From positions 62,001 to 126,000 of the forward strand of contig WHVA01000295.1 in assembly GCA_015179125.1 (NCBI GenBank): 64,000 nt of DNA, written 5' to 3'. The notes below the pieces were generated by a model. That model made no database searches. It saw nothing but the letters and a program-made list of their open reading frames with translations, and was not told the origin of the DNA. Shown one piece after another: positions 4,850-48,038 of the stretch (position 1 is the first letter of the stretch; every line of letters begins with the position of its first letter). This DNA comes from Gautieria morchelliformis. Its lineage: Eukaryota > Basidiomycota > Agaricomycetes > Gomphales > Gomphaceae. Both the position numbers and the translations under genes were made by a program.

Positions 4850-6591
4850 TGTCATGACGCTTTCATTTCCCATACTCAGATGCCCTGTTTTCCCATTTCT
4901 CACTCCACCCCCGTGTTCGTTCTGATCGCCCTCGCCGTGTTCGGCAACCAATCCTCGCTGTTCACACCATTTACCATAGCCACGCCATCAAAAGCACGAT
5001 CGACTTCTTTGGACTGACTTGGCAGTCATCACTGAGCCTATCACCTCCTCTGCTCAACCCTCGTTTGATGATGTTCCTATGATCGGATTGTCATGACGTG
5101 TGTATTTCCTACACCTTGTTACCCCCATTTCCCCTTTCGCCACTTCTCTGTATTCGCTCGGCTTCGCCCTCCACGTCGACCACTGCTGCCCTATGTCATC
5201 TCCGTTGGCCCTTCCTCGCATTTCGCTGAACAGCCACTCGCTGCTCGCATCATTCGCCAGCAGGCACACCATCAAATCACGATCGATATCCCTACCCGGC
5301 ATGATGGCTCGCCAGTAGCTCCATCAGCTTCTCGGTCCAACCCCCTTTTGGTGTTCATATGAGCAGGGTGCGCTCGCGGGACGTCCTACCCGTAGGTCGT
5401 GTGGGATCAACCCAGCAGATGAAGAACCCGTGCAGGGCGGTGTATATGCGGGCCCCAAGACATGATTTCATACATAGGTGCCTTCGCCACCTTTACTCTC
5501 CGTCGTTTCATGTTCGCACTCTTCTCTCACTCTATTGTATGTTTATTCCATCTACTTAGTATCATGACTGCACACCCCTATCCAACCCTGACTCACGATG
5601 GCCTCTTTCCTATTCGCTGATACCTTATGAGCATTCGATATAAGTAGTTTACATTCGCATGTATATTCCCCAGCTCAATTATCATACATCGTCTATCTTG
5701 TGCAAACTTGACCTCGCTGTAAGGGCAACCCTGGCTGGTTGTGGAGGTCACACTACCACACAACTGACAAGGGGAAATCCAAAGTATGTATAAATGAATA
5801 GAGTATACAAGAGAGGGGGTTCTCACCTGACAAGGGGAAATCCAAAGAGAAAAGTCTAAGGACCCCAATGTCAGCGAGCCCGTATTATACTACACTGCGC
5901 AGCCAGGGACAACACTTGGCACCCGCCATCAACCCTGCATCCCCCTGACCTCCCTGACCCTTGATCAACCCTTGATGCCACCTATTATGCGAGTCGCTTG
6001 ATTTCCGACACTGTTCCAAGAGTGGAAGTCGGAAATTGGAGTGGAACTGGCAAGGCGAACAGAACTAGTGGAAGTTCTCCCAGAAGCGGAATCATTTCCG
6101 AAAGCGGAGGCGGAGATGGAATCGGAACTGGAACCGGAGTCGGAAATGGAGTCGGAACTGGGTGTGGTGTCGGAACTGGAAATGGAAAACAGGGTGTCCC
6201 CTGACACTCGCTGTGATCATCATCTGAAGCCTTCTCTTGGAGATTTCTATCTTCGACCAGCAGAGGACTTAGGCATCACTGGTGAGTTCTCATACTTCAT
6301 CTTTGTTACCTTAGCCTTCGAACTATTTTCTGTGCTGTTGGTGAAGGGCTCCGAAGGAGCACGCTACTTAGACAGCCCTTCTGTGACACCTTGCATGTTG
6401 TATCGTCAAGTGCCCCAGGCCATTTCGCTACGACTGTAGATAGGGCGAGCCCCGTTCGGGCAACCCTCCTATCTTGTGAACATTCATTGGTTCACATATT
6501 CGCCGAATGGCATACTTATTCGCACAAGCTATTCGGGCATTCGCTGTGTTCACTAATACACGATATTAATGCCTAAAAACCAATATTGACA
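4850..6591 (+). mobile_element. Repeat A copy 1 (LTR, X-Y form), interrupted by a solo LTR
   Basis: Begins TGTCATGACGC and ends ACCAATATTGACA like the other repeat A copies. It carries the long form of the left end: a block of about 240 bp (4850-5088) precedes a second TGTCATGAC start at 5089. A 489-bp solo LTR sits inside at 5718-6206. The flanks (CCCAT and CGCGC) do not match, so this copy probably arose by recombination between two elements. That would also explain why Gypsy A ends abruptly here. Confidence 0.75.
5718..6206 (+). mobile_element. Solo LTR (489 bp), TSD CTCGC
   Basis: Begins TGTAAGGGCAACC and ends GTGTCCCCTGACA, flanked by a perfect CTCGC duplication (5713-5717 and 6207-6211) in repeat A. 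A close relative lies at 42751-43231. An internal direct repeat of the phrase GACAAGGGGAAATCC and a hexamer-periodic run of GGAACC/GGAATC-type units near 6090-6190 are characteristic. The strand is given as written; the true transcriptional direction is not certain. Confidence 0.9.
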
Positions 6592-7143
6592 CGCGCGCGC
6601 CTCGCCTCGGCCGTCACCCCGAGCAGCCACTCGCGAGGTCCTCCGTCGGCAAGCTTGTACCTGTATAGGGTTAAGTCTGATGGGTGATACGCGAATAGCA
6701 TCCGTTTGTACTACTCAAATCAGCGCCGATTAATGACGGGACTACGACGTGACTCACCTTCTTGCCTTTCGGCCCTTCCTGCCACAGTTCCCGCATGTCG
6801 ATGGCCCCCGCATCCTCGATGGGCCACTGGACTACCTCGGGTCAAACCTCGGGCCTAACCTCACCCGAGGGACCGTCCTCCTCAGCCAGCAAGGTCCTGT
6901 CGAACTTCGAAGGCGTTGCTCGCGCTGTTTTCGTCGACGGCAGAGTTGAAGAGTGCTTGAGGGCGCACCATATTCGTTGGCACTTGCGTTTGCTGCCTCC
7001 TACCCAGCCTTTTATCTAACCTTGGCTACGATTTAAGCTTTGCCTTTCCAGCTACTTAACATCGGGCTGGGATCTAGATTCAAGGATAGGCGAACCTTGT
7101 TCATATTACAGCCTCGAGGGTCTCAGCCATAAGGAGGGTATAC
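6592..7143 (+). mobile_element. 3' internal end of a second chromovirus-like element
   Basis: This GC-rich block lies directly upstream of the LTR at 7144 and ends in a purine-rich stretch (AAGGAGGGTA, 7131-7140) positioned like a polypurine tract. No sense pol frame survives. On the minus strand an exon-like reading is present (separate entry). The left boundary is the end of repeat A copy 1. Confidence 0.5.
6758..6949 (-). pseudogene. Possible antisense exon next to the polypurine tract
   Basis: Reading the minus strand from 6949 gives a protein-like 64-codon stretch (for example SKFDRTLLAEEDG and IDMRELWQEGPKGKK) with one in-frame TGA (6842-6844). It ends exactly at a consensus splice donor GTGAGT (first base 6757). 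Its place, antisense and just upstream of the polypurine tract, is the same as that of the antisense gene of Gypsy B (16862-18119), although the sequences are not recognisably related. No clear ATG was found. A chance open stretch is possible. Confidence 0.35.
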
Positions 7144-9982: not shown

Positions 9983-11027
9983 TGTCATGACCCATCTACT
10001 TTGTATACCCAGTAACCTCGACACTCCACTTTTACGTTCTCCCTGTTCGCTCCTCGCTGAATGCGCCGAACGTTTATTTGCTTTCGCATCATTCGCATGT
10101 AGCAGCGCTGCCTGGACTCAATCAACCCCTTCTCCCCAACTCGATTGTCTATCACGGGTCCCCTCACCTCCCTGGCTTGCACCCCGTTGGATGCTCCTCT
10201 GATCGAATGGCGCAACTCATTTATTTCCGATACCCAGTTATCCCTATTATCCGTTTTCCCAGTCCTCCTCTATGTTCGCATGGCTTCGCCCTCCCCTTGG
10301 GCCATGGCTCTTCAATGATCATTCTATTTCGCCCTTCGCCGCATTTCACTGAACAACCATAACAACCATTTGCTGCTCGCATTGTTCACCAGCAGGCACG
10401 CCATCAAAACACGATCGACATCCCCTACCTGGCATGATGGCTCGTCACTAGCTCCATCAGCTTCTCGACCCAACCCCTTTAGGTGTTCATATGAGCAGGA
10501 TGTGTTCGCGGGACGTCCTACCCGGAGGACGTGTGGGATCAACCCAGTAAACGAAGAGTCCGTGCAGGGTAGTGTATATGCAGGTCCCAAGACATGGTTT
10601 CATACATAAGGTGCCTTTGCCACCTTTACTCTCTGTCGTTTCATGTTCGCCCTCTTCTCTCACTCTATTGTATGTTTATTCCATCTATTTTGTATCATGA
10701 CTGCGCACCCCTATCCAACCCTGACTCATGATGGCCTCTTTCCCATTCGCTGATACCTTACGAGCATTCGATATAAGTAGTTTACATTTGCATGTATATT
10801 CTCCAGTTCAATTATCATACGTCCATCTTGTGCAAACTTGACCTCGTTGTTACTATCGTCTTAAGCCCTCTTCTATAGACTACTATCTTCGACCAGAAGA
10901 GGACTTAGGCATCAGTGCTGAGTTCTCATACTCCATCTTCGTTACCTTAGCCTTCGAACTATTTTCTGTGCTGTCGGCGAAGGGCTCCGAAGGGGTGCCT
11001 TCGCCGGCGAAGGGATTGTTGCTACTT
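9983..11027 (+). mobile_element. Repeat A copy 3, left part
   Basis: Left portion of an LTR beginning TGTCATGACCC. Its right portion is at 18892-19118. The element as a whole is flanked by CAATG (9978-9982 and 19119-19123), a perfect 5-bp duplication, and is about 1,267 bp without the nested Gypsy B. It carries the long X-Y form of the left end, with the second unit starting near 10209. Confidence 0.9.
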
Positions 11028-11678
11028 TGTTACGACCGTTCATTTCTGACTTCCGACCCTCAGTTCCGCCACACCTTCCGCCCCTCCGACATTTCCGACA
11101 TTCCGCCCATTGTACATTTCCCTTGGTCTTTCGACTCTATTACTCGGACCCACCGGACCCGCTTCATTGTTCATCAAAACCATATACCGGTCACCCTGGT
11201 AGTTCGTTGTCAGATATGTTTTCCTGACCCCTTGTTCTTTGCCATAGTTCTACCTTACCCTGAACCCCCCTTGTAGTCCTATTGTTCCCAATAGTTAGTT
11301 CCCACACATTGTCTACTCGACTTCCGCTTCCTCTGGAATTTGCTTAGTACCATTCCATTACTTGTTGTTCTGCGCTTTGTATAAAACCCCTCATGTATGT
11401 CTGTTATTCTGCAATCAGATAATCACCTTCGATACTTGATTTCCTTCGCTCCATCTCCTGTTCTTAGCACAGCGAGTCTAGCAAGATCTCAGTCTCTCCG
11501 CCTTCCACCTTCCGCCTCAGTTCCGACTCAAGTTCCGACCGAACCTTTGGTTCAGTACCTTCCGACTTCCGACTCAGTTCCGAAATACTTAGGACGATAG
11601 TTCATTGGGGGCGCAATCTATAAGTTGAAGCCGCTGTCCTTTCCAGTTCCGACTTATTGGAAATCTCGATACGTAACA
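11028..11678 (+). repeat. Gypsy B 5' LTR (651 bp)
   Basis: Starts TGTTACGACCG and ends GATACGTAACA. A TATA box (GTATAAAA, 11389-11396) precedes the likely RNA start near the TGTATGTCTG segment. The upstream U3 part is packed with TTCCG/TTCCGAC words that may act as clustered binding sites. Confidence 0.93.
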
Positions 11679-11711
11679 GTATTATCTGATTCCCACCCGA
11701 TAACTATCACT

Positions 11712-13043
11712 ATGCCTCCTCATACCACAGCTACTTCAGCTCGAGCAGGAGCTGTCGAAGCTCTCTCTTATTTTGGCAGTCTTAGATCCGCAGCACCAAG
11801 GCACGCAGAACCCTCCGGCAGCTCTCGTGCGGACGATGAGCTCTCCGATGCTTTTCCGCAACGATTCGAAGAAGTTCCCAACACTAATCCCGACGACAAT
11901 CCCGACTATGACGGGAATTCAACGAGTAGCAGCGGCGAACAAACAGCAGCGTCATTCCGACGCCCAGCTCCACCACCACCACCTCCACCAGGACCACCTC
12001 CAGGCGGCCCTCATGGCGGTCCTCGCGGTGGTCCTCCACCTCCAATTCCACCTCAGATTCCCGCCAACCCAGTTCCGCCCGCGCCAGTTCCGGATCTTGC
12101 ACAAGCCATCGCCATGCTAGCCGGCCAACTCCAGCGCCCGGCCCAAGCACCACCACGCCCCAAGACAAAGGTCCGCGAACCAGATCAGTTCGACGGTTCC
12201 GACCCCAAGAAGCTCCAGCCATTTCTGGTCCAGCTTCAACTCAATTTCCGTGATCGTCCCGACACCTTTCCCGACGACGAACGAAAGGTCAATTACGCCC
12301 TCTCCTATCTCCGAGGCACGGCGCTCGACTACTTAGAACCCGCCCTCATGGATCCGTTCGCTCTCGTCGACTGGGCCGACGATTACCCCAATTTCATTTC
12401 CGAACTCCCAACTTCGGACCATTTGATATGGAAGCCGATGCGGAAAATGAACTCGATAAGCTTCGCATGAAAGACACTCATAAGATAGCTAAATATATCG
12501 TCACGTTTCAGCAGCTTGCTCCTCGAGTCCAATGGGGAGAAGCCGCACTCCGACGCCAGTTTTACATGGGCTTGCCATCCCGCATCAAGGATGAAATTGC
12601 CCGCGTCGGAAAACCCGCCACCCTTACCGACCTCCGCAACCTCGCCCAATCCATCGATTCGCGCTACTGGGAAAGACAAGAAGAAGACTAATTCCGGAAA
12701 CAACAACTCCGGAAACAACAACAACAACAACAGTTCCGGAAACAACTCCGGCAACCGGAACAACAACAACAACACCCCTCGGAACAACCAGGCCTCTGGT
12801 TCCAACACCAACGCCCGGAAGAGCACTCCAGACCTTTCCGACAAACTTGGGAAGGACGGAAAACTAACCCCTGTAGAACGCCAGCGTCGCATGGAAAACA
12901 ACCTTTGCCTCTTCTGCGGCAAAGGAGGTCACGTCGCTCGCAACTGCACTCGCACTTCCGCCTCCGCTGCTAAGGCCAAGGGCCGCGCAGCAAAGACGGA
13001 AGAGAAATCCGAAGCGGCTCCCGCTGCGGATTCAAAAAAATAG
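11712..13043 (+). pseudogene. gag: Gypsy B Gag, two frameshifts
   Basis: Starts at the first ATG downstream of the 5' LTR (MPPHTTATSA); an in-frame ATG at 11625 lies inside the LTR and is less likely. Order: acidic/serine-rich N-terminus, a proline/glycine run (about residues 85-115), the retrotransposon-gag domain (REPDQFDGSDPKKLQPF onward), an asparagine-rich linker and a CCHC zinc knuckle (CLFCGKGGHVARNC, near 12907-12948). The frame shifts near 12405-12420 and again near 12675-12690 in an AAGAAGAAG run. These lesions would stop production of intact Gag unless they are sequence errors. It forms the particle and binds RNA in intact relatives. Confidence 0.85.
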
Positions 13044-13079
13044 TCAGCAGTCCTCCGGCCTCCGCACGAGCTGAGGGCT

Positions 13080-13400
13080 GTGTTGACCCCATTCGTGCGA
13101 CAAACGAGGTTAAACTCAACGCATCCGCTCTTTCGTCCTCTGACTCTATCCGTTCCGCTCACTTCCGACACCATTTCCGCACCCCCGTTCACAGCACTGG
13201 TCGACTCCGGTTCGACTCATTGTTTCCTAGATTCCGACTTTGTTTTGAAACATAAACTTCCGACCCGCAACATTCCGACAATTCCGCTCCGCCTTTTCAA
13301 CGGGTCTTCCAACACGGGAATTTCCCAAGTCGTGGATCTGTCTATCCGCTTCGCTACTGGGACAACCATGAAGTTACGTTTTATGTTACTCCGCTAGATG
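13080..13400 (+). pseudogene. Gypsy B retropepsin-like protease
   Basis: The active-site motif VDSGSTHCFLD (Asp-Ser-Gly-Ser) lies about 40 codons in. After a frameshift near 13370-13385 the continuation reads VLGHNWL, the second conserved protease motif, in frame with the downstream pol. It is a single protease domain broken by one indel and would process Gag-Pol in an intact element. Confidence 0.8.
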
Positions 13401-16400
13401 CTAGCTGTTCCATTGTACTAGGACACAATTGGCTCACCCGATATAATCCGTCGATTAACTGGGCATTGGGTCAAATACAGTTCCGTACCCCGGATCAACT
13501 TCCGTCTATTCCGACGTCGTCCGCAAAGATGGCTCAGGCCTCTTCTGCAACTCCGCTCGTGGATTCAGTTCCGCACTCCGGTCCCGCTTTAGCACCTCCG
13601 CCCCTCGAAGCTCCTCGAATTGCGCTTGTTTCCGCCACCGCTTTCCGCGTATTGCAACGGCAAGATGATATGACCGTTTTCCAGCTTCACCTCTCCGATT
13701 CGGCTCCAGTCAAGGCTCGTTCCACCTCGACTTCCGCTCCGGTCGACATGAGCTCAGTTCCGGAAGAATATCGTGACTTCCCGGACGTGTTCAATAAGGC
13801 CAAAGCCGACAAACCTGCTGAACATCGACCTTACGATCTGAAGATAGATTTGGAAGAAGGAGCATCTCCGCCCCTTGGACCGATCTACTCTCTTTCGCAA
13901 AGTGAACTCCAAACACTCCGCGAGTTCGTTGATGAACATCTCAACATGGGCTTCATCCGCCCTTCACTGTCTCCGCATGGCGCTCTGGTCCTTTTCGTCA
14001 AGAAGAAGGATGGATCTCTCCGCCTCTGCGTCGATTTCCGCGGACTCAATGCCCTCACCAAAAAGGACAAATATCCGCTTCCGTGCATTTCCGACTTACT
14101 CGACACTCCCCGCAGGGCGAAGATCTACACCAAAATTGACCTCCGGCACGCTTATCACCTTGTCCGCATTCGGGAAGGTGACGAGTGGAAAACCACTTTC
14201 CGCACCCGCTACGGTGCTTTCGAGTGGACTGTCATGCCTTTCGGTCTAACCAATGCTCCCGCCGCTTTTCAGCGATTCATGAACGACGTATTTTCCGACA
14301 TCCTCGACGTATGCGTCCTAGTCTACATTGACGACATCCTCATCTATTCCGACACACCGGAAAAACATCGGGAACATGTCCGTGAAGTACTCCGCCGTCT
14401 ACGCAAACACCATCTCTACGCAAAAGCAGAGAAATGCGAATGGCATCGCGACACGGTCGAATACCTGGGCTACATCCTCTCTCCTACAGGTCTTACCATG
14501 GCAGAGGACAAGGTCAAGGCAATTCAAGAATGGCCGGAACCCCGACGTGTTAAGGATGTGCAGTCTTTCCTTGGCTTCGCCAACTTTTACCGGCGTTTCA
14601 TTTATAATTTTTCCGACATTACTGTTCTGCTCACGCGTCTCACCAGGAAGGGTGCCCCATGGAATTTCACTCCGGAATGCCATTCCGCATTTGAAGCCCT
14701 CAAATCGGCCTTCACCACGGCTCCCATACTCGGGTTCTGGATTCCTGATGCCCAACTTGTACTCGAAACCGACGCTTCCGACTACGCGCTAGCTGCCATT
14801 CTTTCCATCATTTCACCCGACGACGGAGAAATTCATCCGATCGCCTTTCATTCCCGCACCTTTTCCGCCCCGGAACTCAACTACGACGTCCACGATAAGG
14901 AACTACTTGCGATTTTCGAAGCCTTCAAAATTTGGAGACACTACCTCGAAGGTCCAACTTATCCGATCGACATTGTAACGGATCATAAGAACCTTGAGTA
15001 TTTTGCAACGACTAAGATTTTGACTCGCCGTCAAGTCCGCTGGTCTGAATACCTCTCACAGTTCAACATGGTGATCCGCTTCCGCCCCGGAAAGCTCGGA
15101 GCAAACCCCGACGTGCTCACTAGACGTTGGGACGTCTACCCAAAAGAGGGAAGTAGCGACTATGCCAGCGTTAATCCGCACAATTTCCGCCCAGTATTCC
15201 CTACTGAGAAACTGGCATCGTCCCTGCGTGCCACAGCATTGCAGTTTCCGCTACTCCACGCCTCAATTATCATGGACACCGAGTCTCTCCATTCCGACAT
15301 CCGTTCCGACCCCACCCCCGCAACCCACCTCGATGACCCCACTAGTCCTGGATGGTCCCTCGATTCCGACGGATTTCTCCGGTACAAGTCCCGGATTTAC
15401 GTTCCGGATACCAATGATCTATGCCTTTGCGTACTCCAGCAAAGCCACGATCATCCGCTCTCAGGACACCAAGGCCAGAACAAAACCCTCGACATAATCC
15501 GACGCACCTATACTTGGCCTCTCCTCCGCACGATGGTCCAAGACTACTGCAAGTCATGCACCACCTGTATGCGCGCCAAGCCCCAACGTCACAAACCCTA
15601 CGGCCTCCTGAAGCAACTTCCGATCCTGGAACAACCGTGGAATTCGATATCCATGGATTTCATTGAGAAACTTCCTAAGTCATCTGGCTATGATACCATT
15701 CTAGTGATCGTTGACCGCCTCACAAAGCAGTCCATCTTTATTCCGACCTATGACACCATAACCTCCGCCCAGCTCGCACAGCTCTTTGTGCTCCACGTCT
15801 TTTCCAAGCACGGAATCCCTTCCCATGTCACTTCCGACCGTGGTTCCGAATTCGTGTCATCCTTTTTCCGCACCCTCGGAAAGGCTCTCGACATGAAGCT
15901 CCACTTCACTTCCGGTTATCACCCCAAAGGAGACGGACAAACGGAACGTACTAATCAGACCCTTGAGCAGTATCTCCACGTCTATTGCAACTACCAACAC
16001 AGCAATTGGTCCGACCTTCTTCCGCTCGCGGAATTTGCTTACAACAATGCGCCTTCCGCCGCCACCGGAATCTCACCCTTTTACGCCAACAAGGGCTACC
16101 ACCCGAATCTCGCCATCCACCCCGAACGCGACCTCGCCTCTGCAAGAGCCTGAGATTTCGTTGTGGAACTCGACGACCTTCACCAGCACCTGCGAGAGAA
16201 CATTACCGCTGCCCAGAAGAGATACCAAACTTCTGCCGATCGGAAACGCCTTCCACAACCGGCATTCAAGATAGGCGACAAAGTCTTTGTCAAAGCGGAA
16301 AACTTCCGCACCACTCGCCCCTCGAAGAAGCTCTCTGAGAAATACCTCGGTCCTTACGAGATCATCGCTAAGGCCGGCAGTCGTTCTTTCACTCTCAGAC

Positions 16401-16735
16401 TTCCTGACAATATGCGCGCAGTACACCCGGTATTCCATGTCTCCATGCTTGAGCCCGCAGTTCCGAATACAATTCTGAATCGAGAACAACCTCCGCCTCC
16501 GCCAGTCGTCATCGACGGAGAACCGGAATATGAGATCTCGGAAATTCTCAACTCCAAGCTCGACAGACGATACCGCTGCCAACTCCAGTACCTAGTCAAG
16601 TGGGCAGGCTATGAAAACACCGACGAAGAGACCTCGTGGATTTCTGCCACGGAACTCGACCACGCCTCTGACCTCGTCTCTGATTTCCACAAGTCTTATC
16701 CTGATAAGCCTGGCCCCATTTCCGCGCCCTAGTCA
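13400..16735 (+). pseudogene. pol: Gypsy B Pol: RT, RNase H, integrase, chromodomain
   Basis: One long frame (13466-16153, open upstream to about 13385) carries RT with the catalytic box VYIDDILIYS near 14323, RNase H (ETDASDYALAAIL), and an integrase zinc finger (HDHPLSGHQGQ ... CKSCTTC). It also carries the DDE core (MDFIEKLP, SDRGSEF, the Glu in GQTERTNQ). A TGA at 16151-16153 interrupts it; the same frame continues through the GPY/F module (KYLGPYEII) and a C-terminal chromodomain (YLVKWAGYENTDEETSW), stopping near 16732. The chromodomain marks the chromovirus clade and would direct integration to methylated-histone chromatin. The single stop is probably a CGA-to-TGA change. Confidence 0.9.
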
Positions 16736-16861
16736 TTTCCGACCTCATTTCCGACACCATTGCTTTCTTACAGTTCTCAAGTCATTATTAAAACCCGATT
16801 CAATTTCCGTTACACTAATTTCTGACACTTCAAGAAAAATATTACAAGTCACTTCGACAGC

Positions 16862-18119
16862 CTACTCCTCCCTCATTGTCTCCGCCTCGACCTCTTTTTC
16901 CGCTTCCGGCTCTTTTTCTGCCCCTCCTACCTCGACACTCACCAACTCCGTTTCCACCCGTTCCCTCGTTTCCGCCCCCCCGCTCGAACCCGCTTCCGCC
17001 CCGTTCTCCTCCTGCATCCACAGTTCCATCCTTTCCCGCACCATGTCGTTCTGCCACCGGTACTCCCGCTTGAACTGCTCCAAGACCGCTGACATGACGG
17101 TCATCTGGTTCTGGAACGACAGCAACTACTGTTCCTGAACCACCGCCATACCCACAAGCAGGTTCCGGATCCCGCGTTGGTTTTTCCGGATCCCCCTCAG
17201 CGACTCAGCGATGTCAAGCAGCGGAGACGCCATGCTGAAGCGGTTAAGCACCGCTGTCTCCGATGTTCCGGTCACTGGAAACCCTTCCGCCTTCTTCCCG
17301 CTTGGTCCCGGTTTTGACTTGGGGGTTTCAGGCCCCTCGGTCTCAACCCTGCGCCGTTTCCGCTCCACCCTTGCGGCACACCCATCCACCACACAACGGC
17401 ACTTCTTGTCTCGGCACCGTTCGCAGGCCGTCTCCCGCGGATTTTCAGACCACACACACTCCAGGCCCTTGACCTCGCACGTGTCGCAAGGCGCCTTCTC
17501 CTCCTCGCCGTCCCTGGTTTTCCTTTTCCGGGTCACGGGATTTTCTGGCCCCAGTTCTCGCAACTCCAGTATCCGGGCCATCTTCTCCTTCCGAGCCTGC
17601 TGGAACTCGTCCGCCCTCCGTTTCCGCTCCTCAACGATGTTCGGCATGGGAGCATTTTCTTTCTGCTTCCCCTTTCCCTCTGGAGCCGGCGTGCTTTCCG
17701 CACTGCTTTCCGCTTCCGACTCCCCCTCGGATTCTACGACTCTCTGGCAGTTTTTTCCATGAGCTCCGGAATACCACACGACATTTCCGACTCACCCGGG
17801 ATTTCCCTGCCTTTTCCGCCGCGGCCTTTTCTTCCGCAGCCTTTTTGGCCGTGTCCCGTTTCCGCTGTTCTTCGCGGACACACGACTCCTCCTCGCGACG
17901 CTTACGGTCACGCTCCTCCTTCTCCTTCCGCTCCTGTTCCCGACGCTCCTGTTCCTTGTGCTCTTTCTCCTTGCGCTCCTCCTCCAGACGCTCCCTCTCT
18001 TTCCGCGCGGCTTCCTCGGCCTCGCGCTGTTCGGCCAATTCCTTTTGCGCGAGCATATCAGCAAAATGCTGCTTCATCTCAGTGCTGGTCATTTTGGAAA
18101 AATCGACTGGAGTGTTCAT
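16862..18119 (-). CDS. Antisense spliced gene in Gypsy B: coiled coil plus Zn2Cys6-like cluster
   Basis: Minus-strand gene filling the space between pol and the polypurine tract. Exon 1 (18119-17796, 108 codons) starts MNTPVDFSKM and is a Glu/Arg/Lys-rich probable coiled coil. A consensus 52-bp intron (17795-17744, GTGAGT...CCAG) joins in frame to exon 2 (17743-17126, 205 codons). Exon 2 has the Cys series C-x2-C-x6-C-x10-C-x2-C-x6-C (CDTCEVKGLEC ... CERCRDKKCRC), the spacing of fungal Zn2Cys6 DNA-binding clusters. The half CERCRDKKCRC resembles the usual first half but comes second. Basic stretches follow. After a TAG at 17126-17128 the same frame stays open 87 codons to 16862, ending in another Glu-rich helical segment, so the full form was about 400 residues. 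Nuclear function is inferred, not shown. Confidence 0.7.
17744..17795 (-). other. 52-bp spliceosomal intron of the antisense gene
   Basis: GTGAGT donor and CCAG acceptor on the minus strand; size matches introns of host genes nearby (49-64 bp). Splicing joins codons CGG and AGA without changing frame, linking two open readings that lie in different frames. Confidence 0.7.
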
Positions 18120-18188
18120 GATGGATAAAACAGAAGACGCGTCTTGTTTCCCGCCTATCTTTCGAACTCCGACGCGTTTGTTCACAGG

Positions 18189-18196
18189 TCACGTGA
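18189..18196. promoter_or_regulatory. TCACGTGA palindrome upstream of the antisense gene
   Basis: A perfect 8-bp palindrome containing the E-box core CACGTG, about 70 bp upstream of the antisense start codon at 18119 and about 45 bp before the 3' LTR. Position fits a proximal promoter element for antisense transcription. Function is inferred from position only. Confidence 0.35.
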
Positions 18197-18241
18197 TTCC
18201 GACTTGTGGTCTCGCGGGGCTCGACCTTAGAAGGGAGATAC

Positions 18242-18891
18242 TGTTACGACCGTTCATTTCCGACTTCCGACCCTCAGTTCCGCCACACCTTCCGCCCCTC
18301 CGACATTTCCGACATTCCGCCCATTGTACATTTCCCTTGTTCTTTCGACTCTATTACTTGGACCCACCGGACCCGCTTCATCGTTCATCAAAACCATATA
18401 CCCGGTCACCCTTGTAGTTCGTTGTCAGATATGTTTTCCTGACCCCTTGTTCTTTGCCATAGTTCTACCTTACCCTGAACCCCTTGTAGTCCTATTGTTC
18501 CCAATAGTTAGTTCCCACACATTGTCTACTCGACTTCCGCTTCCTCCGGAATTTGCTTAGTACCATGCCATTACTTTTTGTTCTGCGCTTTGTATAAAAC
18601 CCCTCATGTATGTCTGTTATTCTGCAATCAGATAATCACCTTCGATACTTGATTTCCTTCGCTCCATCTCCTGTTCTTAGCACAGCGAGTCTAGCAAGAT
18701 CTCAGTCTCTCCGCCTTCCGCCTTCCGCCTCAGTTCCGACTCAAGTTCCAACCGAACCTTTGGTTCAGTACCTTCCGACTTCCGACTCAGTTCCGAAATA
18801 CTTAGGACGATAGTTCATTGGGGGCGCAACCTATAAGTTGAAGCCGCTGTCCTTTCCAGTTCCGACTTAGTGGAAATCTCGATACGTAACA
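18242..18891 (+). repeat. Gypsy B 3' LTR (650 bp)
   Basis: Same ends as the 5' copy (TGTTACGACCG to GATACGTAACA), preceded by the purine tract AGAAGGGAGATAC and followed by the TACTT duplication. About 14 substitutions or small indels separate it from the 5' LTR by eye. Confidence 0.93.
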
Positions 18892-19118
18892 TACTTAGAT
18901 AACCCTTCCGTGACACCTTGCACGTTACATCATCAAGTGCCATGGGCTATTTCGCTACGACTGTAGATAGGGTGAGCTCCATTCGGGCAGCCCTCTTATC
19001 ATGTGAACATTTGTTGGTTCACCTATTCACCGAACGGCATACTTATTTGCACAAGTTATTCGGGCATTTGCTGTGTTCACTAATACACAATATTAACGCC
19101 TAAAAACCAATCTTGACA
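18892..19118 (+). mobile_element. Repeat A copy 3, right part
   Basis: Continues repeat A after Gypsy B and ends ACCAATCTTGACA, followed by CAATG, the target duplication of this LTR. Confidence 0.9.
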
Positions 19119-20581
19119 CAATGTTGCAAAGCTTGGAGGCAACTTCCCAAGTATCACTCAAGTAATTATATGTTCATCTCCTGTTCACACATTATCCCGC
19201 TGACGACATCCCAATTATTCTTGCCTACCAAACCCAGAGCCTCATAATTTGTTTCTTACACCATTGGTTACATTTATATTTACAGTTATATTGGTACGTG
19301 TGAAGTGCGGTAGCCTTCGTGACCTGTCGGTCTGGATTGAATCTGGTGCAGCACAGGTGAAATGCCAGAGACGGTAATTGAGAAAGGGGCTGGAATGGTG
19401 ATTGACCATCCGTGTTGTAATTTCTTGTTGACATGTGTTAAGTCGACTCAAAGGTGGATACTATACATGCAACCAAACTTGCCTTAACACGTAACACGAC
19501 GAACTGCCTTAGATACATGAATACTGAGACAAGAACAAAGTGAAATCAGGAAGTTGGCAGGCTGAAGGAGAAGCAGGCACGAAAGGTTATCATAAGGGCC
19601 TGTGCACCAATGGGGACGTAGAGACGAAGGTGACAGACCACGGCAAGTTGAAGGAGAGAGGGATAAGCGGGACATTGGCAAGATAGGCTTTCACTGAAGA
19701 GATACATGATGGAGACAGCAAGGCACAGCACAGAATGGCACAAAACAAGAATGGGGCAAGCAATAGAATATGTCAGCGAAAGACTATAGTTGCAAGAACA
19801 TGGAAAATATGCACCTGACAGAACCAATGTAATGAAAGGAAACATGGTACAAGAGGTCAGGGAATAAGGACAGGAACGAAAAGGGTGTGGACAAACACAT
19901 ACCTGGAGGATGGATGAAAAAGCGAGAATGGAATGGGGGACAACATCAGGAAAAAGGCATGGTGATATGCAGTTCTACGCAGTCCTATGCAGTCCTACGT
20001 AGGCCACGTAGGACCTATAGGCCTGTAGGACATTGGCCGTTTATGTAGTATACTGTAGTTCGCAGGTAGTACTGTCGTCTGTGTAGGCCAATGTAGCTGT
20101 CATGTAGGGCTACATAGCGGACCCACAAGACTACATTGTGCGCTGTACCCAATACATTGCTGCAAGGTAGCTTCGCTGTAGCGCTATGCTGCATGCTGTA
20201 TTTCCTTGATATCAGCTAGTTTGGAATCAATTTGGCATGTATTGATGTTTGATTTGCGCTAGTTTAGAATGAATATATCACATAGTACTATCTGCAACAT
20301 GGCCCATGGGCAAATAAAGAGGCAATTGAGCCCTCAATCTACCCCAATCTCAATCCTCGTCAGATGATTCAATGGCCTGCGCGGCCAGGGAGAACTTCGT
20401 CATGTTGAAGTGCGGCTTCGGGTCATCTTGCAATATTGGCAGGCGAGCATGCAGTCTACAGGTAGCGGCCCAGGTCAAGGCCCTTTGTGAAGGGTTAATA
20501 ATACAGAGGGACATAACTCCCATTATCATGAAGATTCTCCTTGAGTCGAGCGAGACTCTTCGCTGATTTTGCATTAAAACT
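19119..20581. other. Spacer with a CTACGTAGG-rich block
   Basis: No gene was recognised. Around 19970-20190 words such as GCAGTCCTAC, CCTACGTAGG and CTATAGGCCTGTAGG recur in direct and inverted form, giving several short palindromes. Minus-strand readings at 19484-19845 look like chance hydrophobic frames. The DUF6532-type gene ends at 20582. Confidence 0.45.
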
Positions 20582-42750: not shown

Positions 42751-43231
42751 TGTAAGGGCAACCCTGGCTAGTTGTGGAGATCACACTACCACACAACTGA
42801 CAAGGGGAAATCCAAAGTATGTATAAATGAACGGAGTATACAAGAGAGGGGATTCTCACCTGACAAGGGGAAATCCAAAGAGAAAAGTCTAAGGACCCCC
42901 AATGTCAGCGAGCCCGTATTATACTACGCTGCGCAGCCAGGGACAACACTTGGCACCCGCCATAAACCCTGCATCCCCCTGACCCTTGATCGACCCTTGA
43001 TGCCACCTATTATGCGAGTCGCTTGATTTCCGACACTGTTCTGGGAGTGGAAGTCGGAAATTGGAGTGGAACTGGCAAGGCGAACAGAACTGGTGGAAGT
43101 TCTCCCAGAAGCGGAATCATTTCCGAAAGCGGAGACGGAGATGGAATCGGAACCGGAACCGGAGTCGGAAATGGAGTCGGAACTGGGTGTGGTGTCGGAA
43201 CTGGAAATGGAAAACAGGGTGTCCCCTGACA
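42751..43231 (+). mobile_element. Solo LTR (481 bp), TSD GCGCC
   Basis: Close relative of 5718-6206 (TGTAAGGGCAACC to GTCCCCTGACA) with perfect flanking GCGCC (42746-42750 and 43232-43236). LTR plus one duplication is 486 bp, divisible by three. The frame before and after is therefore the same, but stops inside the LTR break translation. Confidence 0.92.
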
Positions 43232-43851
43232 GCGCCACCTACAGGTCCAGCGCGATCAGATTCACGTCGGAGGACGAAACCGCCATGAAAGTCATGGCGG
43301 CACGCACGTCGGTCACGCCAGACAAGGCGGCCAAGCCGGTGTATCACCACCGAAGCAAACATAGGACACGGCCAACGCACCCACGCAGTGAGAACCATAC
43401 CCTGTCGGGGTACTGGGAAATAAATGGTGTAAAAGCCCACTGCCTGCTGGATAGCGGCAGCGAAGGGGTACTGCTATCCCCTGAGTTCACGCGAGCTACA
43501 GGGATGAAAACATTCTCCCTGGAGCAGCCAATCGCGCTGCAGCTAGCCTGCATAGGCACCCATTCCACGATCAACTATGGAACAAACACGACCATCAAAT
43601 TTGGTCGTGAAACATACAACGAATATTTTGATGTGGCAAATGTCGAATATTACAACGCGATCTTAGGGACGCCATTCCTAAGGAGATTCGGCATAACCCT
43701 GGACTTCTCAAGCCCAGGGACAATCCGCAAGGGGAACAAAGTAATCCCCACGGGCAAGGTCTTGTTCGACGATGATGGATCGACGAACGAGGACAAGGGA
43801 CCACGGGTGAGCAGGACCACCCGGGCACCGAAACCAAACCTGGCTCATTGA
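43232..43851 (+). pseudogene. Gypsy C retropepsin-like protease
   Basis: The frame continues the Gag C-terminus after the solo LTR. It shows the protease motif CLLDSGSEGVLLS, then YNAILGTPFLRRFGI, the Ile-Leu-Gly partner motif. The stop at 43851 precedes the RT remnant by about 250 bp with only frameshifted sequence between. It is cut from Gag by the LTR insertion. Confidence 0.75.
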
Positions 43852-44099: not shown

Positions 44100-44617
44100 G
44101 GAATTCCATTAGAACTCCCGCCACTACGGGAGATCAACCATGAGATCAATCTCATAGATCCCAACAAGCACATGCGGTATCGACTACCGAAATGCCCCGA
44201 ACACTTCCGAGAGGAACTGTCGGCTAAGATAGAAAGATACACCACTGCAAAGTGGTGGATTCCGGCAGTTGCGCAGCAGGCCGTGCCCATGCTGTGTGTG
44301 CCAAAGAAGAATGGTACATTACGAACCATCTTCAATCTGCGTCAGCAGAACGTGAACACGGTGAAGGACGTCACGCCCATCCCGGATCAGGATATCATCC
44401 GCAGCGACATGGCTCGCTGTCGGTATCAAACAAAACTCCATATGTCGGAAGCATACGAGCAGATCCGGATTCATCCAGATCACATAGCAAAGGCTGCCTT
44501 TGCCACGATCCTTGGCACCTTTAGGAGCCAGGTGATACAGATGGGAGACTGCAATGCCCCATCAACGTTCCAACGGCTGATGACAGCCATTTTCCGCGAC
44601 TGCATAGGTCGCTTTGT
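44100..44617 (+). pseudogene. pol: Gypsy C reverse transcriptase, N-terminal half
   Basis: Reads LPPLREINHEI ... MLCVPKKNGTLRTIFNLRQQN ... CNAPSTFQRLMTAIFRDCIGRFV, the fingers and first half of the palm of a Ty3/Gypsy RT. In motif A the first catalytic aspartate is replaced by histidine (KLHMSEAYEQIR, where relatives have LDMS). The sequence ends before the YxDD box. This RT could not be active. Confidence 0.75.
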
Positions 44618-44845
44618 AGGGGAACAGCTGTTCAACCAGCCAAGGAAGGCTGCTCAACCAGCCCTAGTCTGTTCTTTTTGTCTTGACAACATGTAAAAAC
44701 ACATTTGAAGAATTAACAGTATCTGTATGCTGTTAATATAACTGGGGAAAGGCTTTTCAAACATTCCTCTAGTTATCTTATATTTTTCCTTATTTTTCCA
44801 AAGTCTCCATGGCTCAAACTACCATTTTTCTGTCATTACAGAGTT
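44618..44845. other. Junction sequence between Gypsy C and Gypsy D
   Basis: AT-rich, with a small repeat (CAACCAGCC twice near 44635-44665) and no recognised domain. It replaces the RT catalytic region of both elements. Confidence 0.4.
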
Positions 44846-46980
44846 GTGGATCCTCTAGCACCCACAACTCTGTTCCGGGCGCTCTATTTCAAACTCCGCC
44901 AGGCACCTCAGTATTTCCAGCTGAGTCCCAAACAGTTGCTATATGCAGCCATAGCAACTGTGCAGCCTGTTTGGCTTCACCAAACAATGGGGATCATGGT
45001 CAGTCATGACAACAAGGCTGTACTGTCCCAGCTATGTGATGATGGCAAATGGCGGCCTGTGGGGTTTGTCTCCAAAAGCCTCAATGATGCTGAACGCAAC
45101 TATGCCATCCATGACAAGGAGCTTCTTTCTGTGATTCGGGGATTAGAGGAATGGCGCCACATCTTAGAGGGAACAAAGCACAAGATTGAGATTCTCAATG
45201 ACCATCAGAATCTCACCTACTTCCGCACTGCACAAAACCTGAACCGTCGTCAAGCACGCTGGTCACTCTACCTCTCTCGCTTTGATTTTGAGCTGATCCA
45301 TCGTCCTAGTCGTCATTCAGCCAAGCCTGATGCACTCTCACGACGCGTGGATCATAAGCGGGGGGAGGAAGACAACCAAAATCAAGTCTTACTTGCCCCT
45401 GACTTGTTCCACATCAAGGCGAATCCTCCAGAGGCTGGCGCGCAGTTAGTCCCAGGTGAAGGTGATGCTTTCCTCAATCGAGTAAGGAACTGTGTAGACC
45501 GGGATGAAAAGGTTGTCAAGGCTCTCAAAGAACTGGGCTCCTCTGGAAATTTGCGAGGAGAAGAGTGGTCTGAACAGGATGGGCTTGTCCTCTATCACAA
45601 CAAAGTGTATGTGCCGCTTGATGCAAAACTACGACATGACATAGTGAAAGCGCACCATGACATACCTCTCACCGGTCACCCTGGTCGTTGGAGAACCACT
45701 GAACTAGTTGCTCGGAGTTACTGGTGGCCTGGGATGGGACGTTACATTGCAAAATACGTGAAGGCCTGTGACCTGTGCAACCGGACAAAAACCTTCCCTG
45801 CTTCTCCCATTGGCAAGCTTCTACCGAACCGTATCCCAGACCGTAGGTGGCAGGTTATGTCTGTTGACTTGATTGTAGAACTGCCTACCAGTCATGGCTA
45901 TGATGCTCTCCTTGTTGTCGTCGATCGCCTCTCAAAGCGTGCACATGTCATTCCCACCACTTCAGATGTAACTTCGGTGGGAGTTGCCCGACTCTTCCGT
46001 GATCATGTTTGGAAACTTCATGGGCTCCCTGAAGAAATCATCAGTGATCGAGGCACACAGTTCATCTCCCAGTTCATGCGTGAACTGAACAAACTTCTTG
46101 GTGTCAAAGTCGCTGCCTCTACTGCTTATCACCCCCAAACTGATGGACAGACTGAAAGGGTTAATCAGGAGATTGAGCAATACCTTCGACTATTCGTCAA
46201 CCAGCGTCAGGATGATTGGTTTGAATGGATATCCTTGGCTGAGTTTGCCTATAACAACCGAATCCATGCCTCAACCCAGACTACACCCTTCATGTTGGAC
46301 AGTGGCCAACATCCAAGGCTGGGACTGGAACCAGTTCGGGAAACTCGACTCGAGGCCCTGGATGAGTTCACAACACGGATGGAAGCGGCCACAAGAGAAG
46401 CTCGTTCGGCCCTGTCCAAGGCAGCAGAGGACATGGCACGCTTCTATGACGTGCACCATAAAGCAGCCCCAGTTTATAAGCTTGGTGACAAGGTCTGGCT
46501 CAATGCACAAAACATCACAACCACTCGCCCAATGAAGAAGTTAGACCACAAGTGGCTAGGCCCCTACACTGTTAATAAGGTGGTCTCACGAAATGCCTAT
46601 GGTCTAAATCTTCCTACATCCTTTGGTCGCACACATCCAGTGTTCTCTGTCGTCCTGCTTCGGCCATATGAAGATGACCCAATCCTTGAACGTCATGCCC
46701 CTCCACCACCCCCCCTGTCATACGGGATGGAGCCGAAGAATATGAAGTTGAAAGGATTCTAGACAGCAGGATGTTCCGTGGAAGGTTGGAGTATCTCGTG
46801 CGCTGGAAGGGCTATGGAGCTGCCGACGATCTCTGGCTACCAGCGAAAGATGTCTCTGGGGCAAAGCGACTCGTTAAAGAATTTCACCGACAGAACCCAG
46901 AGGCACCTCAACGTATCTCAGCAGCCACATATATGTCCCTCCCCTTCCAGAGATTTCAGAACTTCACAGAACCTTAAACT
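44846..46980 (+). pseudogene. pol: Gypsy D RNase H, integrase and chromodomain; one-base shift in a C7 run
   Basis: A 638-codon uninterrupted frame (to 46762) contains RNase H (HDNKAVLSQ, AERNYAIHDKELL), the integrase HHCC finger (HHDIPLTGHPGRW ... CDLCNRTK), the DDE core (SVDLIVELP, ISDRGTQFIS, GQTERVNQEIEQYL) and the GPY/F module (KWLGPYTVNKV). Near 46709-46715 a run of seven C's shifts the frame; the alternative frame gives EEYEVERILDSRMFRG, then YLVRWKGYG in a chromodomain ending near 46976. RT, protease and Gag are missing: the element is 5'-truncated where it meets Gypsy C. Intact integrase coding implies a recent copy. Confidence 0.85.
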
Positions 46981-47152: not shown

Positions 47153-47713
47153 ATGTCCTCGCCCGCCATTGAGCTTGTTGCCCTCCCCAGCTTCACCCAA
47201 AACCTCTCTGACCTGCCAAACATGTCACGTGTCGATCCCACCCTCCTGCACTTCTCCGGCTTCTCGTCATCCAGAGCAGCCAGTGAAGCCAAGCTACAAA
47301 GGATGCTTGACTGCCGTGATCTCGACGTCGCATGGTCTTCAAAGTGGTCCGTCAGCTCTGAGGACCTCACACCAGCGGAGAGTCAGGCGCCCACTCGCCC
47401 TGCACTCGCATTCCTCAGACCCCGACACAGACGAGAGAACACGTACTACGTCGGCGACCCTGTCTTCCTCAACGATGGAACCCCCCTTGTGGAACTCCCT
47501 ACACTTTCGAAGGCTGGGTGGGGCGGCATTTTCGTAACATGGCAGGAGAGCGAATACGTCGAGCAAGGTTCCGAGGGCCGCACTTGCCCATGGACCCCAA
47601 TCCCCCTGAGCTCATCATTGACCTGCGTTACCAGGAAGGGAAGGGCCAGGAGAGATGGTGGTCCCGCCTATGGCATACTTGGAAACGATGTCTCGGTGGA
47701 TGTTGAGGGCTAG
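47153..47713 (+). CDS. Extra sense ORF of Gypsy D between chromodomain and 3' LTR
   Basis: A frame of about 187 codons starts MSSPAIELVALPSFTQN. At about 47515 the more protein-like reading passes to a neighbouring frame (GRHFRNMAGERIRRARFRG, then PHLPMDPNPPELIIDLRY) that ends near 47706, suggesting one frameshift in a single ORF. No domain is recognised. Its place matches the space used by an antisense gene in Gypsy B, but here the ORF is in the sense direction. It may be a captured or lineage-specific accessory ORF. Confidence 0.45.
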   Translation: MSSPAIELVALPSFTQNLSDLPNMSRVDPTLLHFSGFSSSRAASEAKLQRMLDCRDLDVAWSSKWSVSSEDLTPAESQAPTRPALAFLRPRHRRENTYYVGDPVFLNDGTPLVELPTLSKAGWGGIFVTWQESEYVEQGSEGRTCPWTPIPLSSSLTCVTRKGRARRDGGPAYGILGNDVSVDVEG

Positions 47714-47746
47714 GTGGCAGCTGTGCTTGTCGGGACGACAAGCATT

Positions 47747-47759
47747 GAGAGGGGGGTGA
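47747..47759 (+). promoter_or_regulatory. Polypurine tract of Gypsy D
   Basis: GAGAGGGGGGTGA directly abuts the TGTCAGGG start of the 3' LTR; such tracts prime plus-strand DNA synthesis. Confidence 0.7.
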
Positions 47760-48038
47760 TGTCAGGGTTCACGCATTTCCTTCCACAAGTTTCTATTTCC
47801 TTCCATGAGTTTCCGTTACCTTCCGTCAGTTTCCATAACCTTCCGTCACATTCCGTCACCTTCCATAACCTTCTACAAGTTTCCGTCTCCCCTATTATGT
47901 AAGCCTTGCCAGCGCTATAAGACTGTAGCCCGTGTGGTGGCGTTTCCTCAGCTTGATCTCTGAGGATACCCACTACACAGGCAAGTCCCCATGTATCTAT
48001 CGTTGGTAGAGTTATAAACTGAGGATACCCACTACACA
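47760..48038 (+). repeat. Gypsy D 3' LTR (about 280 bp)
   Basis: Begins TGTCAGGGTTCACG. The U3 part is a run of degenerate repeats of ACCTTCCGTCA/GTTTCCGT-type units (47780-47890). The 19-bp phrase TGAGGATACCCACTACACA appears twice, 60 bp apart, so the right end is 47979 or, more likely, 48038. It adjoins the truncated Copia gag. Confidence 0.65.

Follow-up and report, generated by a model that had tools for sequence, protein, structure and literature searches.

The Gypsy B family of Ty3/Gypsy chromoviruses in the genome of the Gomphales basidiomycete Gautieria morchelliformis, a fungus of truffle-like habit, carries a third gene: an antisense, two-exon accessory gene that lies opposite to gag-pol, in the interval from pol to the 3' LTR. 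Comparison of 104 aligned copies shows, as far as sequence conservation can, that this gene is real and that both its intron and its predicted protein are under selection. We favor, at a probability of roughly 60%, the reading that it encodes a self-directed DNA-binding factor, which would act as a regulator of the element or as an anti-silencer. The reference copy lies in a stretch of 64,000 nucleotides (the window), to whose numbering all coordinates refer.

Gypsy B occupies positions 11028-18891 of the plus strand and is flanked by the target-site duplication TACTT, read at 11023-11027 and again, as the same five bases following the 3' LTR, at 18892-18896. Its LTRs (11028-11678 and 18242-18891, plus strand, both TGTTACG...CGTAACA) are 98% identical (637/652). 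Between them, also on the plus strand, are a gag region (11712-13043) with a capsid-like segment and a CCHC knuckle (PF16297 and PF14787, both below cut-off); pol (13256-16150), containing reverse transcriptase (RVT_1, 6.8e-40), RNase H (RT_RNaseH) and integrase (Integrase_H2C2, with an rve Pfam score just under cut-off in this copy); and a Tf2-type SH3 domain with a chromodomain (16154-16732; PF24626, 4.6e-21, and PF00385, 3.4e-08). The element thus shows the features that define chromoviruses, namely the order reverse transcriptase-RNase H-integrase, a C-terminal chromodomain, and LTRs with a target-site duplication. The window copy is slightly decayed, because a TGA cuts the SH3/chromodomain ORF from pol and gag is split over two frames; in several other copies the chromodomain lies within an open frame of 1257 amino acids, long enough for pol too.

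On the minus strand, exon 1 of the antisense gene (17796-18119, ATG...CGG) was read directly from the sequence and encodes a highly charged E/R/K helix. It is followed by a 52-nt intron (17744-17795, GTGAGT...CTGCCAG, with the branch site CTNAC that is aligned family-wide) and by exon 2 (17126-17743), which encodes an acidic linker, a zinc-cluster-like module (17378-17488), a basic stretch and a predicted amphipathic C-terminal helix. The original prediction had proposed a spliced antisense gene inside a chromovirus, with a 52-bp intron at 17795-17744 joining two exons in frame; its coordinates are confirmed in the window copy, where the exons do join in frame, and the proposal is borne out by the conservation of the splice sites over 104 copies and by a dN/dS of 0.18. 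Its extension of the product to 16862 does not hold for this copy, in which the spliced frame stops at an in-frame TAG (17128-17126), giving 313 amino acids; the continuation past this stop (16862-17125, minus strand) is open in other copies. The TAG is private to the window copy: across the 104 copies, the aligned codon is CAG in 88, CAA in 14, TTG in one, and TAG in the window alone. A shared C-terminus (..ETMREE or close variants) is reached by 55 of the 104. Because the ATG lies only 122 nt from the 3' LTR, antisense transcription most likely starts in this leader (18120-18241, minus strand) or in the LTR itself, which is the presumed source of the promoter. A start beyond the 3' LTR is a further option.

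The gene is highly repeated. All copy comparisons come from one genome (122 Mb, 1113 contigs), in which at least 150 places match exon 2 and at least 150 match exon 1 when each is used as query; a more distant member, L114, likewise yields at least 150 matches, the first 57 of them at 86-100% identity to it. We took 107 other copies of the gene region (L002-L008 plus 100 more) alongside the window (L001) and dropped four (L037, L052, L086 and L089) that gave no BLAST match to exon 1, leaving an alignment of 103 copies and the window (n = 104). The exon 1 ATG is found at the same place in 99 of these, and in 91 the length of exon 1 is divisible by three. Fifty-nine copies pass an intactness filter that demands the ATG, an exon 1 length divisible by three and a product of no fewer than 370 amino acids, while 45, the window included, fail it; in 56 of the 59 intact copies the predicted protein is 383-424 amino acids long.

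The association with the chromovirus is widespread, as a chromodomain match is present on the opposite strand at 96 of 110 loci; four of the 14 loci where it is missing (L009, L012, L114 and L115) are short stretches. Among five loci read over 9 kb, four (L110-L113) have pol, chromodomain and antisense gene in the same order as the window, and the fifth (L109) has an LTR and the antisense gene, with no pol within its 9 kb. Protein searches, two of which scored the 8000 candidates sharing most words, gave no full-length relative outside Gautieria and returned two proteins of that genus, P0001 and P0002; sequence and profile searches of the PDB gave no match. P0002 matches the genome at 100% over its full length and has two full-length places there, one of them with a TAG. 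This protein had suggested that the antisense gene exists in a second variant, in which the middle module is swapped, a suggestion that we rejected on finding that the relatives L114 and L115 are also of the zinc-cluster type; the idea still stands for P0002 itself alone.

In the intron, the donor GT is kept in all 104 copies (the full GTGAGT in 102) and the acceptor AG in 103 (CAG in 99 and TAG in four, the remaining copy having CTG). In the aligned branch site, C-T-N-A-C, the T and the A are kept in 104 of 104; the exact word CTNAC occurs in 91 introns, and in 81 of these the branch A lies 14-17 nt before the last base. The length of the intron is by comparison free: it ranges over 48-58 nt, with one of 82, and falls into the three classes modulo three in the proportions 44/31/29, independently of the reading frame. 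Because splice and branch sites are kept while length ignores frame, we judge the intron to be genuine and maintained by selection. We also considered that the segment might be a frameshift or indel instead of an intron, since some copies, with a 51-nt intron, read straight through it; this was rejected given the spread of lengths modulo three (44/31/29) and the retention of the donor, the branch T and A, and the acceptor in 103-104 of 104 copies. Intron length is divisible by three in 44 copies; in 41 of these the length of exon 1 is so too, and 37 of the 41 contain no stop through the intron; since these 37 are open, a read-through isoform may exist in them. No copy among the 104 lacks the intron, in keeping with the earlier suggestion that it can persist since the genomic RNA is the other strand. 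Because it is carried by the strand complementary to the genomic RNA, the intron would survive each round of transposition, which offers a simple explanation for a long-lived intron inside a retrotransposon.

The pattern of substitution points to a protein as the selected product. Pairwise dN/dS among the 59 intact copies, binned by dS (1691 pairs in total), has medians of 0.15-0.26, from 0.26 at dS 0.05-0.15 (40 pairs) to 0.15 at dS >0.8 (704 pairs). The original prediction had proposed comparing the antisense frame with the sense strand: over 500 random pairs, dN/dS is 0.176 in the antisense frame, versus 1.12, 0.34 and 1.81 in the sense frames over the gene, and 1.37 and 1.51 in the remaining two antisense ones. 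The sense frame at 0.34, which has about two stops per sequence, is probably a mirror of the antisense codon positions, for which the mean minor-base fraction is 0.090, 0.069 and 0.212. The intactness filter favors conserved copies, as it admits open frames only, but alone does not create such a bias toward synonymous sites. For the 43 of the 59 copies whose tail is open, the constraint can be set beside that of the chromodomain ORF, with dN/dS of 0.124 for the latter and 0.179 for the antisense gene in the same 882 pairs. Together these values indicate that the spliced antisense protein is under strong purifying selection.

The antisense gene is more divergent than pol and the chromodomain. 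Over the 882 pairs, its median dS is 0.74 versus 0.20 for the chromodomain ORF; and when the window is compared with L110-L113, using the best BLAST piece for each, identity is 91-98% in pol and the chromodomain, 84-94% in gag and 87-90% in the LTRs versus 80-87% in exon 1 and 78-82% in exon 2. The antisense lineages are therefore either older or faster evolving than the pol that accompanies them. Exchange by template switching would be the simplest cause of this gap.

With these data, two accounts that dispense with a functional protein can be weighed. The open frames might be due to chance or artefact, overlapping frames having been opened by codon bias and splice-like sites picked by eye; in line with this, long open frames are present in this region on the sense strand as well, and 45 of the 104 copies do not pass the intactness filter. 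Such an account is refuted by the retention of splice and branch sites over 104 copies and by purifying selection that is frame-specific when set against the control frames, and we give it a negligible probability. The original prediction itself had named other copies with stops and without splice sites among the observations that would count against it; the copies speak in the gene's favor, though 45 of 104 fail the filter. A different possibility is that the antisense RNA is itself functional, in the control of silencing or through double-stranded RNA, and that the open frame is incidental. Antisense transcripts have been discussed as regulators acting through dsRNA in the available part of a review of such elements (PMC7264820), and any antisense transcript would overlap the genomic RNA in its 3' part. 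A role for the RNA would not, however, protect the protein sequence, as observed in the dN/dS of 0.15-0.26 and the conserved cysteines described below, nor would it hold the length of exon 1 to multiples of three, as in 91 of 104 copies, while leaving that of the intron free; this alternative is largely refuted, and very improbable. We therefore continue with a selected protein.

What kind of protein this would be is suggested by its cysteines. Seven of them, spaced C-x2-C-x6-C-x10-C-x2-C-x6-C-x4-C, are each kept in 58-59 of the 59 intact copies, whereas an extra cysteine between the fifth and sixth of the window copy is not conserved. The spacing of the first six falls within the range of Zn2Cys6 clusters, C-x2-C-x6-C-x(5-12)-C-x2-C-x(6-8)-C, in those same 58-59 copies, and the seventh, four residues after the sixth, is conserved as well. 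The Pfam model Zn_clus (PF00172) gives the window protein 16.1 bits, below its 21-bit cut-off. Across the family, 22 of 26 members match it at E<=1 (best E 1.7e-4), and the bit scores given for individual members, other than that best match, lie at 13.1-17.8, below 21; in a separate scan, four of six members match with at most 17.8 bits and two give no match at E up to 0.1. The original prediction of a Zn2Cys6 cluster thus stands as to spacing and the conservation of the cysteines, here seven, and falls short as to formal membership in the Pfam family; a cluster of the Zn2Cys6 type is supported by the conserved cysteines together with the sub-threshold matches.

The matches to Zn_clus span profile positions 7-35, 9-36 or 15-36, placing the first half of the antisense module on the second half of the profile. 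Canonical Zn2Cys6 clusters have a basic loop in their first half, between Cys2 and Cys3; this loop is absent from the first half here (CDTCEVKGLEC), and the basic loop is found in the second half (CERCRDKK.RC). Because the first half matches the second half of the profile and the basic loop sits in the second half, the two halves of the cluster appear exchanged with respect to the canonical order, an arrangement that the pseudo-twofold symmetry of the Zn2Cys6 cluster would allow.

The flanking segments are less distinctive. The Glu/Arg/Lys stretch of exon 1 had been described as a coiled coil, a description we abandon: because 49 of its 65 residues (31-95) are charged and only three are hydrophobic (Ala not counted), it looks like a charged single helix instead. 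The C-terminal helix has a weak to modest heptad pattern, with 0.65 hydrophobic residues at the a and d positions, a value reached by 138 of 2000 shuffles.

A candidate target for such a protein is present throughout the element. The most over-represented 5-mer of Gypsy B is TTCCG (106 versus 17.6 expected), and its reverse complement CGGAA is likewise in excess on the sense strand (28 versus 8.7). Both words together amount to 17.0 per kb in Gypsy B, versus 1.1 per kb in two long stretches elsewhere in the window. In the LTRs, TTCCG reaches 20.0 and 21.5 per kb, where shuffles give a mean of about 1.5, and the array is oriented, because the sense strand of the 5' and 3' LTRs contains 13 and 14 TTCCG versus 0 and 1 CGGAA.

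The words also exceed expectation within coding regions, which we judged against 500 synonymous-codon shuffles of each ORF. In pol, TTCCG (36 versus 11.3) and CGGAA (11 versus 4.4) are each reached by none of the 500 shuffles; the same is true of CGGAA in the chromodomain ORF (5 versus 0.7), in gag-B (9 versus 3.1) and in the antisense coding sequence (16 versus 7.6), and TTCCG in gag-A (7 versus 2.2) is reached by one. There is no clear excess of TTCCG in the chromodomain ORF (3 versus 1.4; 44/500) or gag-B (4 versus 1.6; 24/500), nor of CGGAA in gag-A (1 versus 0.5; 214/500), and TTCCG is not observed at all in the antisense coding sequence. Nine of the ten ORFs of at least 250 amino acids in the window outside Gypsy B have no motif excess; the remaining one (43027-43848) includes an island that belongs to another repeat.

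The array is a property of the family. In each of the four other pol-bearing 9-kb loci (L110-L113), TTCCG again ranks first among 5-mers, in the part taken as the element. The 250 nt upstream of the antisense ATG contain a mean of 5.95 CGGAA and 0.09 TTCCG in the 102 copies with enough upstream sequence, and CGGAA occurs inside 95 of the 104 introns. Two members of a second clade, L114 and L115, have 26 and 23 CGGAA and one TTCCG each in about 1.3 kb. Individual sites are partly shared: the window and L110, L111, L112 and L113 have 118, 66, 96 and 93 motifs in common, respectively, with a further 14, 61, 34 and 35 confined to the window and 30, 21, 25 and 22 to the other copy.

The density is not exclusive to Gypsy B, as the window contains three further motif-dense places, at 5985-6200 (8 sites), 43000-43250 (9) and 47500-48000 (6), each reached by none of 100 shuffles. 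The first two are a repeat, and the third adjoins another chromovirus; none of the three gives a BLAST alignment to Gypsy B or L109-L113 at E 1e-3. The repeat taken as the Gypsy A LTR (1265 bp) has neither word, and in the body of another chromovirus in the window the count is 6 in 2662 bp, not in excess. Genome-wide, triple TTCCG with gaps of 2-16 occurs 16,151 times, versus 1,086 for the reversed pattern. Inspected by eye among the matches listed, several triple-TTCCG words are Gypsy B family LTR text, and others belong to the repeat at 5985-6200.

We propose the following mechanism. The antisense gene would be transcribed from the 3' LTR or the leader and then spliced, and its product would be a nuclear protein with a charged helix at its N-terminus, a Zn2Cys6-type zinc cluster, and a C-terminal helix resembling a dimerization element. 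The protein would recognize CGGAA (TTCCG) words in the LTRs, leader, intron and coding sequence, and so could bind copies of its own family at high density; likely uses would be the control of LTR transcription, the shielding of copies from host silencing, or both. The original prediction had suggested a self-encoded regulator of LTR activity or of host silencing, a putative role to which the dense, oriented CGGAA array gives more specific form. CGG triplets are the typical targets of Zn2Cys6 proteins, and fission yeast Pho7 recognizes single sites such as TCGGACATTCAA (PMC5559640, as far as the excerpted text goes). We propose a reader of CGGAA because CGG is the classic Zn2Cys6 half-site and the element is filled with CGGAA; the link between protein and motif is circumstantial. 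The more specific version, in which the zinc-cluster protein coats its own copies and keeps them open, by self-tagging anti-silencing or self-activation, through CGGAA words painted over their whole length, synonymous positions included, we hold as a tentative one, with odds somewhat against it.

Two alternatives accept a selected protein and separate it from the motif. The protein may not bind CGGAA at all, and may serve instead in nuclear import or integration, RNA binding or the titration of a host factor, the TTCCG array having a separate cause. This would agree with the suggestion that plant antisense ORFs have some nuclear function and a role like that of retroviral accessory proteins (PMC7264820, in the part available), with the sub-threshold Pfam score of the zinc cluster, and with the strand bias of TTCCG (106 versus 28), which is what an RNA-level signal would show. 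A signal acting in RNA alone would, however, have no need of the sense-strand CGGAA that is in excess at the synonymous positions of pol, gag-B and the chromodomain ORF (0/500 shuffles each), and CGG is the usual Zn2Cys6 half-site; we regard this explanation as unlikely, though it is the alternative to be taken most seriously. Still less probable, and in our view doubtful, is that the element exploits, for its expression, a host transcription factor that binds TTCCG/CGGAA, the encoded protein being an independent accessory factor. The dense sites in the LTRs would suit a promoter function, arrays occur also at 5985-6200, 43000-43250 and 47500-48000 of the window, and a second kind of array word recurs among the genome matches listed. 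Against this, the motif extends over gag, pol and the antisense exons, which are distant from any promoter; the presumed Gypsy A LTR has none in its 1265 bp, and the body of another chromovirus shows no excess (6 in 2662 bp). A self-directed DNA-binding factor remains our preferred reading. If it is correct, LTR retrotransposons, like some plant transposons, would be able to label their own copies through motif density and to encode the protein that reads the label; and since the accessory gene comes here with a selected intron, a module of a DNA-binding type and a candidate target word, its function is directly testable.

LTR retrotransposons of plants, and Boty of Botrytis, have antisense accessory ORFs at this place too, to which the excerpted review assigns no established function (PMC7264820). 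The Gypsy B gene resembles the plant aORF-3R group (maize Grande gene23, rice RIRE2, Silene Retand) in its place, its antisense orientation and its conservation over many copies (PMC7264820, PMC11963269): it is present in many copies and conserved like other proteins of the element. A nuclear or DNA-related role is suspected for aORF-3R, as we suspect for the Gypsy B protein; the available parts of these sources describe no intron and no zinc cluster, and Retand ORFs carry TRP28 (PMC7264820, PMC11963269). Gypsy B differs in being a fungal chromovirus with an element-wide CGGAA array and an antisense gene that is, judging by conservation, spliced. Boty brtn of Botrytis cinerea is, by its description, likewise an extra antisense gene of a fungal element, with no zinc cluster, splicing or motif array described in the portions of the sources at hand (PMC7264820, PMC8365987). 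In the titles and opening lines of abstracts that we surveyed, no spliced antisense zinc-cluster gene is reported in a fungal LTR element. With the fungal Zn2Cys6 factors (PF00172), the protein shares the six-cysteine spacing, basic residues in the cluster and a downstream helix; it is set apart by its sub-threshold score, its apparently exchanged halves and its seventh conserved cysteine.

Two further systems offer closer models. HBZ of HTLV-1 is produced from a spliced antisense transcript of the 3' LTR and is a nuclear transcription regulator of its own LTR (PMC3185765, in the part available). It is a bZIP factor of an animal retrovirus, to which we claim no sequence relation, and unlike its transcript, the start site and splicing of the Gypsy B gene are deduced from sequence. 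VANDALs are DNA transposons of plants, and Gypsy B differs from them in being an LTR retrotransposon and in its zinc cluster. VANC of Arabidopsis VANDAL is a transposon-encoded DNA-binding protein whose own family bears dense short motifs in the same orientation; in the excerpted account, these motifs are rare in other transposons, and VANC binding is linked to loss of methylation (PMC5735166). The VANC21 motifs (YAGTATTAY) are mainly non-coding (PMC5735166, same excerpt), whereas the Gypsy B motif is found in coding sequence also. By analogy, HBZ would be the closest anatomical model of the Gypsy B antisense gene and VANC the closest working model; if the proposed function is true, Gypsy B would be the LTR-element counterpart of the plant VANC/VANDAL system, combined with an HBZ-like spliced antisense gene.

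Among the coding parts of Gypsy B, a chromovirus of the window, the antisense gene differs most when positions 16733-18119 are compared with L110-L113, other genomic copies of the region, while pol is 91-98% identical between the window and the same copies. This disparity in sequence points to an antisense gene that either has been exchanged between lineages or is evolving faster than pol. By eye, the gene in copy L106 is apparently a mosaic, with an N-terminal part like that of L098 and a C-terminal part like that of L002, and its counterpart in L033 has a tandem pair of C-terminal tails; together, these two arrangements suggest that copies have recombined with one another. The intron of L010, at 82 nt, has a tandemly duplicated donor half, and thus two GTGAGT donors within a single intron. 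In L055 (G000:C139:93805-98805, in the host genome), the exons are held within an antisense-strand open frame of 1298 aa, and the adjoining DNA lacks pol.

Gypsy B is flanked by a TACTT duplication (11023-11027 and 18892-18896). Related repeat stretches are found at 5337-6592, 10469-10993, and 18892-19119, and the element seems to have inserted into or beside another repeat.

CGGAA, an over-represented 5-mer of Gypsy B and proposed target of the antisense protein, is also dense in two islands of another repeat, at 5985-6200 (8 sites in 216 bp) and 43000-43250 (9 sites in 251 bp). Compared by eye, the islands are nearly identical to each other, and neither aligns to Gypsy B; their repeat could be a second user of the motif. 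A TTCCG-type cluster at 47500-48000 (6 sites in 501 bp), just past another chromovirus (44262-46923), lies in TTCC-rich sequence that differs from both islands.

Two Gautieria database proteins share sequence with the antisense protein. In the annotated protein JB92DRAFT_3134898 (P0001), the N-terminus corresponds to antisense exon 1, the next residues match a translation of the minus-strand LTR, and a DUF6698 domain comes after them; the protein could be an LTR-driven fusion or a gene-model artefact. The other, P0002 (G000:C171:2208-3110 and C388:115393-116295), lacks the zinc cluster, unlike the antisense protein, but the two have a C-terminal block in common and similar charged N-termini, and P0002 is possibly a derived or host relative.
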